Below, in pieces: positions 18,861-23,356 of a stretch of DNA of 64,000 nt. Numbering within the stretch: position 1 is the first letter of the stretch; each line of letters begins with the position of its first letter. A model generated the notes under the pieces. It saw nothing but the letters and a program-made list of their open reading frames with translations, ran no database searches and was not told the DNA's origin. Origin of the DNA: Streptomyces sp. ICBB 8177 (GTDB lineage Bacteria > Actinomycetota > Actinomycetes > Streptomycetales > Streptomycetaceae); assembly GCF_003144095.1 (NCBI RefSeq), contig NZ_NSKH01000024.1:32325-96324 (forward strand). Reading direction: 5' to 3'. The translations under genes were made by a program, and so were the position numbers.

Positions 18861-19331
18861 TCACATCGCCACCCGCTCGACGGGGTCCTCGTCCCGCTCG
18901 ACGCAGGACGTCGGCGCGGGGTCCAGAAGGCGTCCTGCGGGGCGCAGCACGAGGTGGATGCCGAGCACCGCCAGTGTGCCCAGCACCGCGAACCCCGTCC
19001 TGCCCGACGCGGCCAGCACGCCCACGGCCGCCGAACACCACAGCGTGGCCGCCGTGTTGAGCCCGCTCACCCCGCCGCCGTCGCGCAGGATGACACCGCC
19101 GCCCAGAAAGCCGATGCCGGAGACGACGTAGGAGGCGACCCGGGTCGGGCCGGCCGTGTCGCCGGCGGCGACGCTGTAGAGCACGAACAGCGTCGCGCCC
19201 GCGGCGACCAGGGCGTTGGTCCGCAGGCCCGCCATCCGGGCGCGCCACTGCCGTTCGACGCCGATCAGCGCGCCGCAGGCCACCCCGGTGGCCAAGCGGG
19301 TCAGGAAATCGAAGGTGGTCAGGGTGTGCAC
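18861..19331 (-). CDS. mgtC: MgtC/SapB family membrane protein (156 aa)
   Basis: Membrane protein with four or so hydrophobic segments and the family signature CGALIGVERQWRARMAGLRT, then GIGFLGGGVILR and NTAATLWCSAAVG. In other bacteria MgtC is induced by low Mg2+ and modulates the F-type ATP synthase. The start is GTG 19331, with a strong GAGGAGGAGGT ribosome site five bases upstream; the frame is open further upstream but without a comparable start. It lies 35 bp behind the NRAMP-related transporter, in the same direction, so it should belong to the same transcript under the M-box riboswitch. Confidence 0.9.
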   Translation of the reverse strand: MHTLTTFDFLTRLATGVACGALIGVERQWRARMAGLRTNALVAAGATLFVLYSVAAGDTAGPTRVASYVVSGIGFLGGGVILRDGGGVSGLNTAATLWCSAAVGVLAASGRTGFAVLGTLAVLGIHLVLRPAGRLLDPAPTSCVERDEDPVERVAM

Positions 19332-19366: not shown

Positions 19367-21019
19367 TCAGTGGGCCAGGGCCGCCTGCACGATCTTGATG
19401 ACCACCAGCACCATGGCCACCAGCAGGTACGTGCGCAGCGCGGTCATGCCGACCTTGTAGCCGGAGGACAGCACGGGCCTGGCCAGCGTCTCCAGCGGCG
19501 GCATCCGCCAGTCCGCCCGCCCGGTGCGGTCGACGCCGCGCCCGGTTCGGGCCCAGCCCTTGCGGCGGCGCCGCGCCTCCGCGTAGCCGATGGCGATCAC
19601 CCCGGCGACACCGCAGGCCGCCATGATGTCGAGGATCGCCCCGGCGGAGATGTCCGGGAAGAGCACGGACGCGGTCAGCACGATCGACAACGTGATCAGC
19701 ACCCCGACCACCGCGGAGATCAGCGCGTTGGTCCTCGGTCCGTTGACCCAGGGGCCGAGCACGGCACGGTCGTTGCACAGCAGCAGCAGGAAGACCGACG
19801 CCGACGGCAGCAGGACCCCGGCGAGCGTCTGGACCCCCTCGGTCAGCAGGCCGAGCGGTGAGCCGGGCAGGAGCACGATGACCGCGGCGGCGGCGACGAG
19901 CCCCGCGTAGACCGCGTAGAAGCCCTTGGCGCCGGAGATGCCGCGATGCAGCGAGTGCTTGAGCCCGAGGACGTCCCCGATGGCGTACGCGGTCGACAGC
20001 GACACCGCGAACGCGCCGATGACCGAGGCGTCAAGCAGCGCGACGGCGAACAGCACGCCCGCCACCTTGCCCGCGTGGGCGGCGAGGCCGTGTGCGACAC
20101 CCGCGGTGTCGGTGAAGTGGCCGGCCGCGTGGCTGCCGGCGAAGGCGGCCGCGGTGAATCCCATCATGGCGCCCGCGCCGACGACGACGACCACGATGCC
20201 GATCCACAGGTCGGCCTTCTCGTACGACATGAAACGCGGCGTGATGCGCTTGTCGATGACGTAGGACTGCTGGAAGAACAGCTGCCAGGGGGCGACGGTG
20301 GTGCCGACGATCCCGATGATCAGCAGCATGACGGTGGACAACTGGCCGCTGCCGCCCGGCATTCCGGGCACCACGAAGTCGTGGAGCATCCGGCCGGTCG
20401 CCGGGTGCGCCATGAAGTAGACCGGCACCAGCAGCAGTGAGGCCGCGCACAAGGTGATGGCGATCCGCTCGAACCGCTGGAACGAGCCGGTGAACGCGGA
20501 CGCGATGATGACGCCCGCCGCCAGCACCACCGCGGCCGTCTTCGGCAGTCCCAGGTATCCGGCGGCCATGGTGATGCCGATGAACTCGGTCACCAGGGTG
20601 AGGGCGTTGAGCAGGAACAGGTCGATGACGCTGAACGCGCCCCAGAACCGGCCGAACCGCTCCAGGATCAGCCGCGCGTGGCCCACCCCGGTGACCGCGC
20701 CGAGCCGCAGCACCATCTCCTGGTTGGCGTAGAGGACCGGGACCAGCAGGAGCAGGGTCCACAGCAGATGGGTCCCGTAGTTCTGCCCGGCCTGCCCGTA
20801 CGTGGCGAACGCGCCGGCGTCGTTGTCGCCGACCATGACGATCAGGCCGGGCCCGACGATGGCGAGCAGGGTCTTCAGCCGCGCGGACAGCCCGGTGCGC
20901 GGCGCGGTGTCGTCGAGCCTGACGGTGCCGAGGGCGCCGCGGATGTCGCCGACGTGGGCGTCGTCCAGGACGGCGGAGCGCGGCGCGGCGACCGTGGTGT
21001 CGAAGGTGGTGTCGGTCAT
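19367..21019 (-). CDS. NRAMP-related divalent metal transporter, probably Mg2+ (550 aa)
   Basis: LeuT-fold NRAMP family protein with about 11 membrane helices. Canonical NRAMPs bind Mn2+/Fe2+ through DPGN in TM1 and MPH in TM6. Here TM1 reads VGDNDAGAFATY (DAGA at residues 67-70, Asn replaced by Ala) and TM6 reads GTTVAPWQLFF (Met replaced by Ala243, His by Trp245). Loss of the soft-metal Met and the Asn is the mark of the NRAMP-related Mg2+ transporter subgroup. The upstream M-box riboswitch and the downstream mgtC support Mg2+ uptake. ATG 21019 is preceded by GGGAGGT five bases away; an upstream in-frame start is ignored. Confidence 0.9.
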   Translation of the reverse strand: MTDTTFDTTVAAPRSAVLDDAHVGDIRGALGTVRLDDTAPRTGLSARLKTLLAIVGPGLIVMVGDNDAGAFATYGQAGQNYGTHLLWTLLLLVPVLYANQEMVLRLGAVTGVGHARLILERFGRFWGAFSVIDLFLLNALTLVTEFIGITMAAGYLGLPKTAAVVLAAGVIIASAFTGSFQRFERIAITLCAASLLLVPVYFMAHPATGRMLHDFVVPGMPGGSGQLSTVMLLIIGIVGTTVAPWQLFFQQSYVIDKRITPRFMSYEKADLWIGIVVVVVGAGAMMGFTAAAFAGSHAAGHFTDTAGVAHGLAAHAGKVAGVLFAVALLDASVIGAFAVSLSTAYAIGDVLGLKHSLHRGISGAKGFYAVYAGLVAAAAVIVLLPGSPLGLLTEGVQTLAGVLLPSASVFLLLLCNDRAVLGPWVNGPRTNALISAVVGVLITLSIVLTASVLFPDISAGAILDIMAACGVAGVIAIGYAEARRRRKGWARTGRGVDRTGRADWRMPPLETLARPVLSSGYKVGMTALRTYLLVAMVLVVIKIVQAALAH

Positions 21020-21024
21020 GAGGT

Positions 21025-21053
21025 ACCTCCCAAGTCCCCCCACGCGGGGAGGT
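21025..21053 (-). promoter_or_regulatory. SD/anti-SD hairpin before the transporter gene
   Basis: The ribosome site GGGAGGT (21031-21025 on the minus strand) is perfectly complementary to ACCTCCC (21053-21047), 15 bases upstream. Pairing would hide the ribosome site. A competing local stem, CCCC/GGGG, lies in the loop. This could be the final switch of the leader RNA, downstream of the riboswitch and leader ORF. Confidence 0.5.
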
Positions 21054-21192
21054 GTTGGGGGCGTGCGGAATCCCCTCCGGCGCGGGCGCAGGCGTCGTCG
21101 GCCCGGCGCGTGGGCGCAGGGCTGTGATCCGTCACGGCGTTCGGGCCGTGCGGATGGCGGGGACGCGGGTCGTAGCCGCGCGGGGGAAGGTG

Positions 21193-21267
21193 TTACCGCG
21201 TGCCGGAAGAATGCGAGGACATGCGGGATGCGGGCCTACTGTGGCCCGGACTACTACTGGAATCCAT
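21193..21267 (-). CDS. Leader ORF between M-box and transporter (24 aa)
   Basis: ATG 21267 follows a strong GGAAGGAGG ribosome site, about ten bases away. The peptide begins MDSSSSPGHSRPASRM and continues Ser/His/Arg-rich to a TAA stop at 21193-21195. It lies 93 bases after the aptamer and 173 bases before the transporter start. It has no domain and is too short for a stable fold. Position and composition suggest a regulatory leader peptide; Salmonella mgtL is a precedent for leader translation sensing Mg2+ or proline. Serine or proline codons could pause ribosomes and bias downstream RNA folding. This is inference from sequence only. Confidence 0.55.
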   Translation of the reverse strand: MDSSSSPGHSRPASRMSSHSSGTR

Positions 21268-21359
21268 GCGTCTCTCGCCTCCTTCCGGTCAGGGCGCGAC
21301 CGCGCGCCGTGCGACTCGGCAAGGGAGCAGACCGGTCCGATGCGACCGGCTCACCCCAA

Positions 21360-21514
21360 CTCGTCAGAGCTTTGGCACTCCACGGCGTAATCTCCCTGCG
21401 GGAGAAGCCACTTGGGGTCACCCCTTAGGCCGGGGAGACCTGTCCTGAACCTGGGCGTCTCTCGACGTCGTCGGGTCAGTGGCCTGTGTCCGTGAAGACG
21501 CCTCACCGAACGAG
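21360..21514 (-). promoter_or_regulatory. M-box (ykoK) Mg2+ riboswitch
   Basis: Read on the minus strand, the block shows the M-box landmarks in order: P1 strand CTCGT, GGTGAGGC, ACACAGGCCACTGACCC, AGAGACGCCCAGGTTC, CCTAAGG and the 3' signature GTGCCAAAGCTCT, closing with ACGAG, which pairs with the 5' CTCGT. This matches the Bacillus mgtE leader layout. M-box RNAs fold around several Mg2+ ions and switch off downstream Mg2+ transport genes when Mg2+ is plentiful. The controlled genes here are the NRAMP-related transporter and mgtC. No U-tract terminator is visible, so control may be translational or Rho-dependent. Confidence 0.93.
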
Positions 21515-21535
21515 GTGCCTGTACAAACTTCTCAC

Positions 21536-21541
21536 AGCATA
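21536..21541 (-). promoter_or_regulatory. Probable -10 box of the M-box transcript
   Basis: TATGCT on the minus strand lies about 22 bases before the riboswitch P1 strand, a sensible distance for a transcription start just ahead of the aptamer. No strong -35 hexamer is visible, which is common in streptomycetes. Confidence 0.45.
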
Positions 21542-21629: not shown

Positions 21630-22376
21630 TCAGGCCTGCGCCACCACCATGCGGCACCGCGGGGTGCCGTCGGGCCGCCGCCCCAGGGCGGGCAGTGCGA
21701 CCAGCCGCACCGTGAATCCCGCCCGGGTCAGCTCCTCGCGCACCGAGCCGAGCCGGAAGGGGCGGTAGTACATGACGAAGGGCGGCCGCCACAGGAGGTT
21801 GCGCACTCGCATCGCGACGTCGAAGGCCAGCAGGGACCAGTAGAGGGGCGAGCCGGGCGGCGCGGGCGCCGGAAGCGGGAAGACGAAGCGCCCGCCGGGC
21901 CTGAGCACCCGTCGCACACCCGCGAACAGCCCGGGCCACTCCCTGGGCAGGAAGTGGCCGAAGGCACCGAAGCTCACGACCAGGTCGAAGGCGCGGCCGA
22001 AGGGCAGGGCCCGGGCGTCGGCGCGTACCCAGCGCGGCGTGGGTGTGTCGCCGTTCCGGGACACCGCCGCCGTCGCCTGCCCGTACGCGCTCCGCGCCAC
22101 CGTGAGCATGCCGTCGCTCAGGTCCACGCCGGTCACGCTCCTTCGGCACACGGCGGTCAGCACCCGGGCACCGGCGCCGGTGCCGCAGCACAGGTCGAGG
22201 CCGTCGTCGACCGGGCCCATCGCGCCCAGCGCGTCCCGCACCGCGTCCAGCACGGGGGCGGGAGTGCGGAACGGCGTGCGGTCGAACTTCGGCGCCAGCA
22301 GGTCGTAGCCCCGTTCGACGGAGGAGAGCGCCTGCGTGGCCAGCTCGCGGACGGTGGGGCCCTCGGGGGTGAACAC
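21630..22376 (-). CDS. Class I SAM-dependent methyltransferase (248 aa)
   Basis: SAM-binding motif I is DLCCGTGAGARVL, followed by VTGVDLSDGML (motif II acid), VRADARALPF and FDLVVSFGAFGHF. The C-terminal part (YYRPFRLGSVREELTRAGF) is typical of small-molecule methyltransferases of the ubiE/type-11 kind. The acceptor is unknown. GTG 22376 begins five bases after the stop of the PLP-dehydratase gene, so the two form an operon; the open frame extends into that gene but has no better start. Confidence 0.85.
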   Translation of the reverse strand: MFTPEGPTVRELATQALSSVERGYDLLAPKFDRTPFRTPAPVLDAVRDALGAMGPVDDGLDLCCGTGAGARVLTAVCRRSVTGVDLSDGMLTVARSAYGQATAAVSRNGDTPTPRWVRADARALPFGRAFDLVVSFGAFGHFLPREWPGLFAGVRRVLRPGGRFVFPLPAPAPPGSPLYWSLLAFDVAMRVRNLLWRPPFVMYYRPFRLGSVREELTRAGFTVRLVALPALGRRPDGTPRCRMVVAQA

Positions 22377-22381
22377 CGTTC

Positions 22382-23356
22382 TCAGCCCCGGTCCCGGCCG
22401 GTCAGGTCCCCGGGGTCGGTGTTGGCGCCGCACAGCACGACGGCCACCGTCTCGCCCGCCGCCGGGGCGTAGGCGCCGCGCAGGGCGGCCAGGGCCGTGG
22501 CGGCGGCGTGTTCGACGGCGATCCGGCGCTGGTTCCACAGAGCCTGCCGGGCGCGCACGATCTCGGCGTCGGGCACGGTCACCGTGCGTACGTCGTCCCG
22601 CCGCGCCACCGCCAGCGCCATCGGCCCCACCCGCCGGGCGCCCAGGGAGTCCGCCGCGACGGAGTCGATCTCCACGTCGACCGGCTCACCGGCGCGCAAC
22701 GCGGCGTCCAGCGCACGGCAGTTCTCGGGCTCGACGGCGACGGTGCGGATCCCGTGCTGACCGGCGGCGGTCGCGACCCCGGCGAGCAGCCCGCCGCCGC
22801 CGACGGCCACAACCACCGTGTCAAGCGCGGGAATCCGCTCCCGAATCTCCGTCAGCAACGTCCCCGCGCCCGCAGCGATCAGCGGGTGGTCGTAGGCGTG
22901 GCTGGCCAGCGCGCCACTGTCGGCCGCGAACTTCTCGCACGCCACCAGCGCGTCCGCGTACCCCTCCCCTGCCAGCCGGACCTCGGCGCCGTACGAGCGC
23001 AGCCGGGCGACCTTGACGGCGGGCGCGGTCTCGGGGAGGAAGACGGTGGCCCGCACGCCCTGCTCCCTGGCCGCCCAGGCGCAGGCCAGGCCCGCGTTGC
23101 CGCCGGAGGCGATGGTCACGCCCGCGGGCGGGAGGGTGCCGGCGGCGCGGTGGGCGAGCAGGAAGTTCTGCGCGCCGCGCGCCTTGAAGGAGCCGGTGTG
23201 CTGCATGTACTCCAGCGCGAACCACACGTCGGCCGGGGCCTCGACCCCGTAGGAACGGGTCTCGTCGGGGTCGAGCCGGGCGACGGCGACGGTGCGCACG
23301 CGTCCGGCGACGCGCTCGGCGGCCGACTCGATGTCGACGTGGGTGAGTTGGGGCAC
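22382..23356 (-). CDS. PLP-dependent threonine/serine dehydratase-like enzyme (324 aa)
   Basis: Fold-type II PLP enzyme. The Schiff-base Lys is in QHTGSFKARGAQN, the phosphate/substrate loop is IASGGNAGLA, and the Gly-rich phosphate loop is VAVGGGGLLAG. The C-terminal CGANTDP replaces the usual SGGN-type end. No ACT domain follows, so it is probably not the allosteric biosynthetic threonine deaminase but a catabolic serine/threonine dehydratase or a related racemase. GTG 23356 has AGGAG six bases upstream. It is first in a two-gene operon with the methyltransferase. Confidence 0.85.
   Translation of the reverse strand: MPQLTHVDIESAAERVAGRVRTVAVARLDPDETRSYGVEAPADVWFALEYMQHTGSFKARGAQNFLLAHRAAGTLPPAGVTIASGGNAGLACAWAAREQGVRATVFLPETAPAVKVARLRSYGAEVRLAGEGYADALVACEKFAADSGALASHAYDHPLIAAGAGTLLTEIRERIPALDTVVVAVGGGGLLAGVATAAGQHGIRTVAVEPENCRALDAALRAGEPVDVEIDSVAADSLGARRVGPMALAVARRDDVRTVTVPDAEIVRARQALWNQRRIAVEHAAATALAALRGAYAPAAGETVAVVLCGANTDPGDLTGRDRG

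Follow-up and report, generated by a model that had tools for sequence, protein, structure and literature searches.

A predicted M-box-controlled leader ORF with a conserved AGU-codon core ahead of Mg2+-transport genes in Streptomyces and other actinobacteria

Results

Genes and features of the locus

The window, i.e. the whole 64,000 nt stretch of DNA that was analysed, carries on its minus strand an M-box, a leader ORF (uORF) of 24 codons, a gene of the NRAMP family and mgtC, in that order (Table 1). The M-box is the sole RF00380 match in the genome, is full length and lies far above the cut-off of 44 bits; it encloses the region 21360-21514, where an earlier note had placed such an aptamer, and the transporter and mgtC named there as downstream genes are recovered by Pfam. 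The transporter combines membership of the Nramp fold family (PF01566) with an M-box upstream (RF00380), as would be expected of an Nramp-related Mg2+ transporter (NrmT). Between the aptamer and the NRAMP start lie ~330 nt in which no terminator-like site was found, and consensus searches revealed neither an intrinsic terminator nor a σ70-type promoter. The search for further Rfam families in the leader gave one 12.6-bit chance match only. A methyltransferase gene (21630-22538, minus strand) ends ~110 nt upstream of the M-box and it is possible that its transcription reads through into the leader.

Table 1. Coordinates of the genes and RNA features, all on the minus strand of the window.
Feature	Position	Strand	Support
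MgtC-family gene	18861..19331	-	PF02308, E 5.9e-33; presumed GTG start at 19331
NRAMP-family transporter, probable Nramp-related Mg2+ transporter	19367..21019	-	PF01566, E 1.9e-75
Hairpin closing the NRAMP SD (ACCUCCC 21053-21047 / GGGAGGU 21031-21025)	21025..21053	-	sequence
Long-range helix, 3' arm, ending just 5' of the NRAMP SD hairpin	21060..21087	-	covarying
Long-range helix, 5' arm: last three codons GGC ACG CGG, TAA and 16 nt beyond	21177..21204	-	covarying
Leader ORF (uORF), 24 codons, MDSSSSPGHSRPASRMSSHSSGTR	21193..21267	-	frame, start, core and stop conserved
Hairpin CGGGCC-ACAGUA-GGCCCG within leader ORF	21231..21248	-	compensatory swaps GGGyC/GrCCC
Six-codon core AGU CCG GGC CAC AGU AGG (S-P-G-H-S-R)	21235..21252	-	near-invariant nucleotides, AGU codons
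Leader-ORF Shine-Dalgarno (SD) AAGGAGG	21278..21284	-	almost all 113 leaders have a strong SD
Anti-SD CUCCCUUGCC	21318..21327	-	pairs with leader-ORF SD in P1-closed fold
Hairpin GCCGGUC..GACCGGU capping the anti-anti-SD helix	21331..21350	-	top covariation pairs
GGGGUG, aptamer P1 3' strand and anti-anti-SD strand	21352..21357	-	see text for P1 and UGCUCC pairings
M-box (RF00380) Mg2+ aptamer	21348..21521	-	cmscan 132.4 bits, E 1.6e-29

Distribution of the leader ORF among M-boxes

M-boxes were found in 88 of 298 genomes of the family and in 26 of 395 genomes sampled across the class, and from these M-box genomes together with 80 named NRAMP loci 139 distinct M-box leaders were assembled. The window falls within the genus of Streptantibioticus parmotrematis, its nearest NRAMP relative (L033) being 96% identical. 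An ORF with the motif PGH.RP follows the aptamer by about 65 to 165 nt in 113 of the leaders, made up of 80 of the 93 actinobacterial leaders with an NRAMP gene close downstream and 33 others. In those 80 the ORF reads MDxSSPGHSRP...GTR-stop in frame, with start, SD, core and stop kept. The Mg2+-transport genes downstream, NRAMP and MgtC here, may be MgtE_N, CorA or MgtC in relatives, and the non-NRAMP leaders that were examined share the same N-terminal core ahead of an MgtE_N/CBS, CorA or MgtC-type gene. When other actinomycete families were included, a strong SD and a short ORF were found behind almost every fetched M-box and the core in most of them; a mycobacterial example (L218), AUG AGU CCC GGU GAU AGU CCG, has it in recognisable form. 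This survey of sequences suggests that actinobacteria usually combine an M-box with an AGU-core leader ORF.

Two or three M-boxes, several of them divergent, lie clustered within a few kb of one another at G228:C1:3902126-3907867, G077:C15 and C32, G194:C4:462083-462669, G140:C361 and L003, and in the latter no recognisable leader ORF stands behind the first M-box. In L013 the leader ORF has been enlarged to 41 codons by a Tyr/Thr-rich insertion with the frame kept.

Frame and codons of the leader ORF

In the window the ORF runs from an ATG at 21267 to a TAA ending at 21193, and the consensus for the NRAMP-type leaders is MD(C)SSPGHSRPxxRLSSxSSGTR-stop. With nucleotide motifs as reference points, the distance from core to stop is a multiple of three in 67 of 71 cases and that from start to core in 76 of 78, indicating selection on the reading frame. 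The 24-codon ORF postulated in the earlier note is therefore not a chance ORF, since 80 leaders keep its start, core, stop and frame.

The core is conserved as nucleotides, AGU AGU CCG GGC CAY AGU CGG CCC. Among 111 distinct ORFs, 314 of the 370 serine codons up to the core (85%) are AGU while after the core there are none in 360; in the genes of the window AGU makes up only 3.6% of serine codons. The ORF, earlier called serine-rich, is thus better termed AGU-codon-rich at its 5' end. The amino acids from core to stop are variable. Conservation purely at the peptide level was rejected, as the AGU/NNU codons and the GTR-stop are conserved as nucleotides. The hairpin within the ORF has a mean z of -2.2 against mononucleotide shuffles, and in the Streptomyces core a compensatory swap of GGU with CGA was seen. 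At the AGU-rich SPGHSR core the speed or stability of the ribosome probably matters.

A putative switch between the aptamer and the leader ORF

From the aptamer to the ORF the order of elements is GGGGUG, a covarying hairpin (top covariation pairs 21345-21336, 21344-21337 and 21350-21331), the anti-SD with the general sequence CUCC(C)UUGCC, a second hairpin and the ORF SD. GGGGUG has two partners, either P1, as in the RF00380 alignment, or UGCUCC at 21329-21324 in the fold with P1 open. In the modelled folds the anti-SD lies on the leader-ORF SD when P1 is closed and is held by GGGGUG and the hairpin when P1 is open, and a compensatory change between anti-SD and SD was seen in the covariation scan. 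The predicted accessibility of the uORF SD was on average 0.27 with P1 open and 0.17 with P1 closed in 80 leaders (p 8e-11), the corresponding values in the window being 0.38 and 0.19. The effect of P1 closure is modest, with a drop of more than 0.2 in 18 of the 80 leaders and a rise of more than 0.2 in none, and as a control block raised accessibility the drop can only be said not to be generic. Anti-SD and anti-anti-SD thereby appear to tie the aptamer P1 to the leader-ORF SD in a translational OFF design. The three possible control layers that had been proposed for this leader are present, but as parts wired together through the anti-SD/anti-anti-SD that joins P1 to the ORF SD.

A long-range helix at the stop codon and the closed NRAMP SD

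A covariation scan of the whole leader was contaminated by one divergent clade, producing many spurious pairs, and each helix was therefore tested again at a fixed register, with arms swapped or slid as controls. A main conserved feature, absent from the earlier note, is a long-range helix in the NRAMP leaders that includes the ORF stop. At register 0 the arms are 76% paired compared to 35-50% when slid by 1-3 nt, the covariation peaks at register 0 with 85 double-change cells at 19 positions, helix positions 4, 20, 22 and 24 being among those that covary, and the paired fraction is 0.764 for native arms against 0.725 +/- 0.005 for arms swapped between species. One example is the codon change from GGC ACG CGG to GGC AUG CGG, which is matched by a change from CUGCGUGCC to CUGCAUGCC in the opposite arm. 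Only the NRAMP leaders have this helix (duplex z -2.6, versus -0.4 in other M-box classes).

The NRAMP SD had been proposed to be closed by a 7-bp SD/anti-SD pair at 21025-21053. The pair is present, and across 73 relatives the accessibility of the SD is 0.19 compared to 0.26 when the upstream 45 nt are shuffled and is lower than shuffled in 58 of them; hence the closure of the SD is conserved, though not the exact 7-bp pair. Among the conditions on which the earlier note had staked its reading, an M-box match, a conserved ORF start and stop and a conserved SD closure were found. When a ribosome was modelled on the leader stop the accessibility of the NRAMP SD went from 0.18 to 0.20, with a gain above 0.2 in only 3 of 74 leaders, so that equilibrium folding gives the coupling step no thermodynamic support.

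Leader ORF copies without an adjacent M-box

A search with the core pattern gave 26 sites in 121 genomes and 38 sites in 395 genomes, while the reversed pattern, used as control, gave none in either set. Ten loci (L222-L230 and L233) have an SSPGHSRP leader ORF with no M-box adjacent to it, and in nine of them this ORF precedes an MgtE_N-type gene. No RF00380 match in L222-L230 reached E 0.01, and in eight of these nine an MgtE_N-type gene comes next. Of the two copies in L233 one is preceded by an M-box and followed by mgtC, whereas the other has no M-box and lies between mgtC and an MgtE_N gene. The M-box-free copies in L222 and L233 are located just after mgtC. L229 has, ~150 nt 5' of the leader ORF, an M-box relic that has lost the aptamer core but kept P1 and the anti-SD, with the remnants CACCUC..GGUGAGGCG, GAGGUG and the anti-SD CGCUCCUUGCCG.

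Since the M-box-free copies lie beside Mg2+ genes, the leader ORF behaves as an Mg2+-gene module of its own, and its recurrence where the M-box is lost suggests that it probably has a regulatory role independent of the aptamer. Defining the family by two AGU serine codons three codons apart (S-P-G-H/D/R-S-P/R), we would only tentatively propose an Actinomycetes-wide group of leader ORFs that act as sensors of Mg2+ or of the state of translation, paired with an M-box and retained without it before MgtE_N genes.

Discussion

Proposed mechanism and alternatives

The reading that we favour, and hold to be likely though far from certain, is a translational OFF riboswitch that acts directly on the leader ORF, which in turn would gate the Mg2+-uptake operon. 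In Streptomyces-type bacteria an Mg2+-sensing RNA thus appears to switch a tiny conserved gene ahead of Mg2+-uptake genes. With Mg2+ bound, P1 would form and take GGGGUG, and the freed anti-SD would shut the leader-ORF SD; at low Mg2+ P1 would open, GGGGUG and the hairpin would trap the anti-SD and the leader ORF would be translated. Its ribosomes would then allow expression of NRAMP-mgtC, most likely by blocking Rho and keeping open the long helix in which the region of the ORF stop pairs with the stretch that precedes the closed NRAMP SD. The parts, their conservation, the frame and the covariation, on which this scheme rests, are read from the sequences themselves. The translation of the leader ORF and the direction of the Mg2+ response are what we infer from them, as are the involvement of Rho and the coupling step.

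Membership in the mechanism described for pe20 of Mycobacterium tuberculosis, which comprises an M-box, a translational platform, a conserved uORF2 (Rv1805A) and Rho and was studied with reporter fusions (PMC12810186), is likely. Against the favoured reading speaks that the main Rho site in M. tuberculosis is located upstream of uORF2 and that termination, according to the authors, may not depend on translation of uORF2 (PMC12810186). The combination of Mg2+ sensing with leader translation is well supported by conservation. The leader had been claimed to be richer than usual, but the pe20 design shows that the arrangement is not unique.

In enterobacteria the Mg2+-transporter leaders of mgtA (mgtL) and mgtCBR contain a short translated ORF, and MgtL sets the expression of mgtA by ribosome pausing or drop-off at limiting Mg2+. 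The leader ORF could likewise be a second sensor independent of the M-box, pausing or drop-off at its core at limiting Mg2+, or under another translation condition, setting downstream expression. The ten M-box-free loci, nine of them directly before an MgtE_N gene, the L229 relic with P1 and anti-SD but without the aptamer core, the confinement of AGU to the part up to the core, and the persistence of the core in other families where the hairpin is not obvious all fit such a role. Still, the enterobacterial leaders have no M-box and another peptide, with no sequence in common; the peptide here does not have the acidic/proline run of MgtL, and the conservation of AGU and NNU as nucleotides may equally reflect selection on the RNA, so that we regard this explanation as doubtful. 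Selection on the RNA taken to its end would make the ORF a mere by-product of an RNA element, the AGUCC hairpin and the long helix, with translation irrelevant. AGU, CCG and GGC are indeed kept as nucleotides, the long helix largely accounts for the GTR-stop conservation and the residues between core and stop vary. That the frame is kept through indels, that the start and a strong SD are retained and that lacZ fusions of the counterpart in M. tuberculosis are highly expressed (PMC12810186) makes this quite improbable.

Classical attenuation of the erm type also places a leader ORF and then alternative helices ahead of a closed SD. A ribosome at the leader stop would here free the 3' arm, which would pull the C-run off the NRAMP SD; the stop codon does lie inside the long helix, and in most leaders the G-run of this arm could base-pair with the CCCCC that closes the SD. 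Neither an antibiotic nor an arrest motif is involved here, leaders such as L030, L120 and L131 have the long helix without a G-run, and the predicted ribosome-dependent opening of the SD was not seen. A simple erm-type attenuator is thus not supported, as judged by equilibrium folding only, and is considered unlikely. Direct control of NRAMP by an ordinary M-box, with the ORF incidental, would follow a pairing of M-box and NRAMP that is already known (PMC4072509). As no terminator was found, the aptamer stands far from the NRAMP start, the anti-SD fits the SD of the ORF and the ORF itself is conserved, we give this explanation hardly any credence.

Comparison with known systems

Both an M-box with Nramp-related transporters (PMC4072509) and an M-box with translational platform, uORF and Rho (PMC12810186) have been described before. 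In Clostridium acetobutylicum the M-box precedes NrmT, an Nramp-related Mg2+ transporter, as here, but there the platform is a transcription terminator and no leader ORF is described (PMC4072509). The 2026 description of the pe20 M-box called it the first translational one and its uORF specific to mycobacteria (PMC12810186). The present leader shares with it the M-box, the aptamer-end strand as anti-anti-SD, the anti-SD, a strong SD, a short conserved ORF and a Mg2+-linked operon with mgtC. It differs in that the operon consists of NRAMP and mgtC, a uORF1 is not evident, the codon core is spread wider than mycobacteria and a long covarying helix, followed by a closed NRAMP SD, contains the stop of the ORF. 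This helix, locking the ORF stop to the SD region of the transporter, would be an addition to the pe20-type design.

No open literature on the M-box leader ORF of Streptomyces was found. What is new, all of it computational, is the breadth of its distribution, the core of AGU codons, the helix at the stop codon and the copies that lack an M-box. The latter, which imply a role of its own for the leader ORF, resemble Rv0115A, the M-box-independent homologue in M. tuberculosis (PMC12810186), where uORF2 was found highly expressed in lacZ fusions. The fetched mycobacterial uORFs contain the same AGU..AGU-CCG core, and the universal proline at position 7 noted in the pe20 paper (PMC12810186) fits MSSSDSP; the resemblance lies in the six-codon AGU core and its position, a stretch too short for a homology statistic. 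In a distant actinomycete family (L215, L216 and L217) weaker M-boxes are followed by ORFs with the variant core MTDxEPxHSC.
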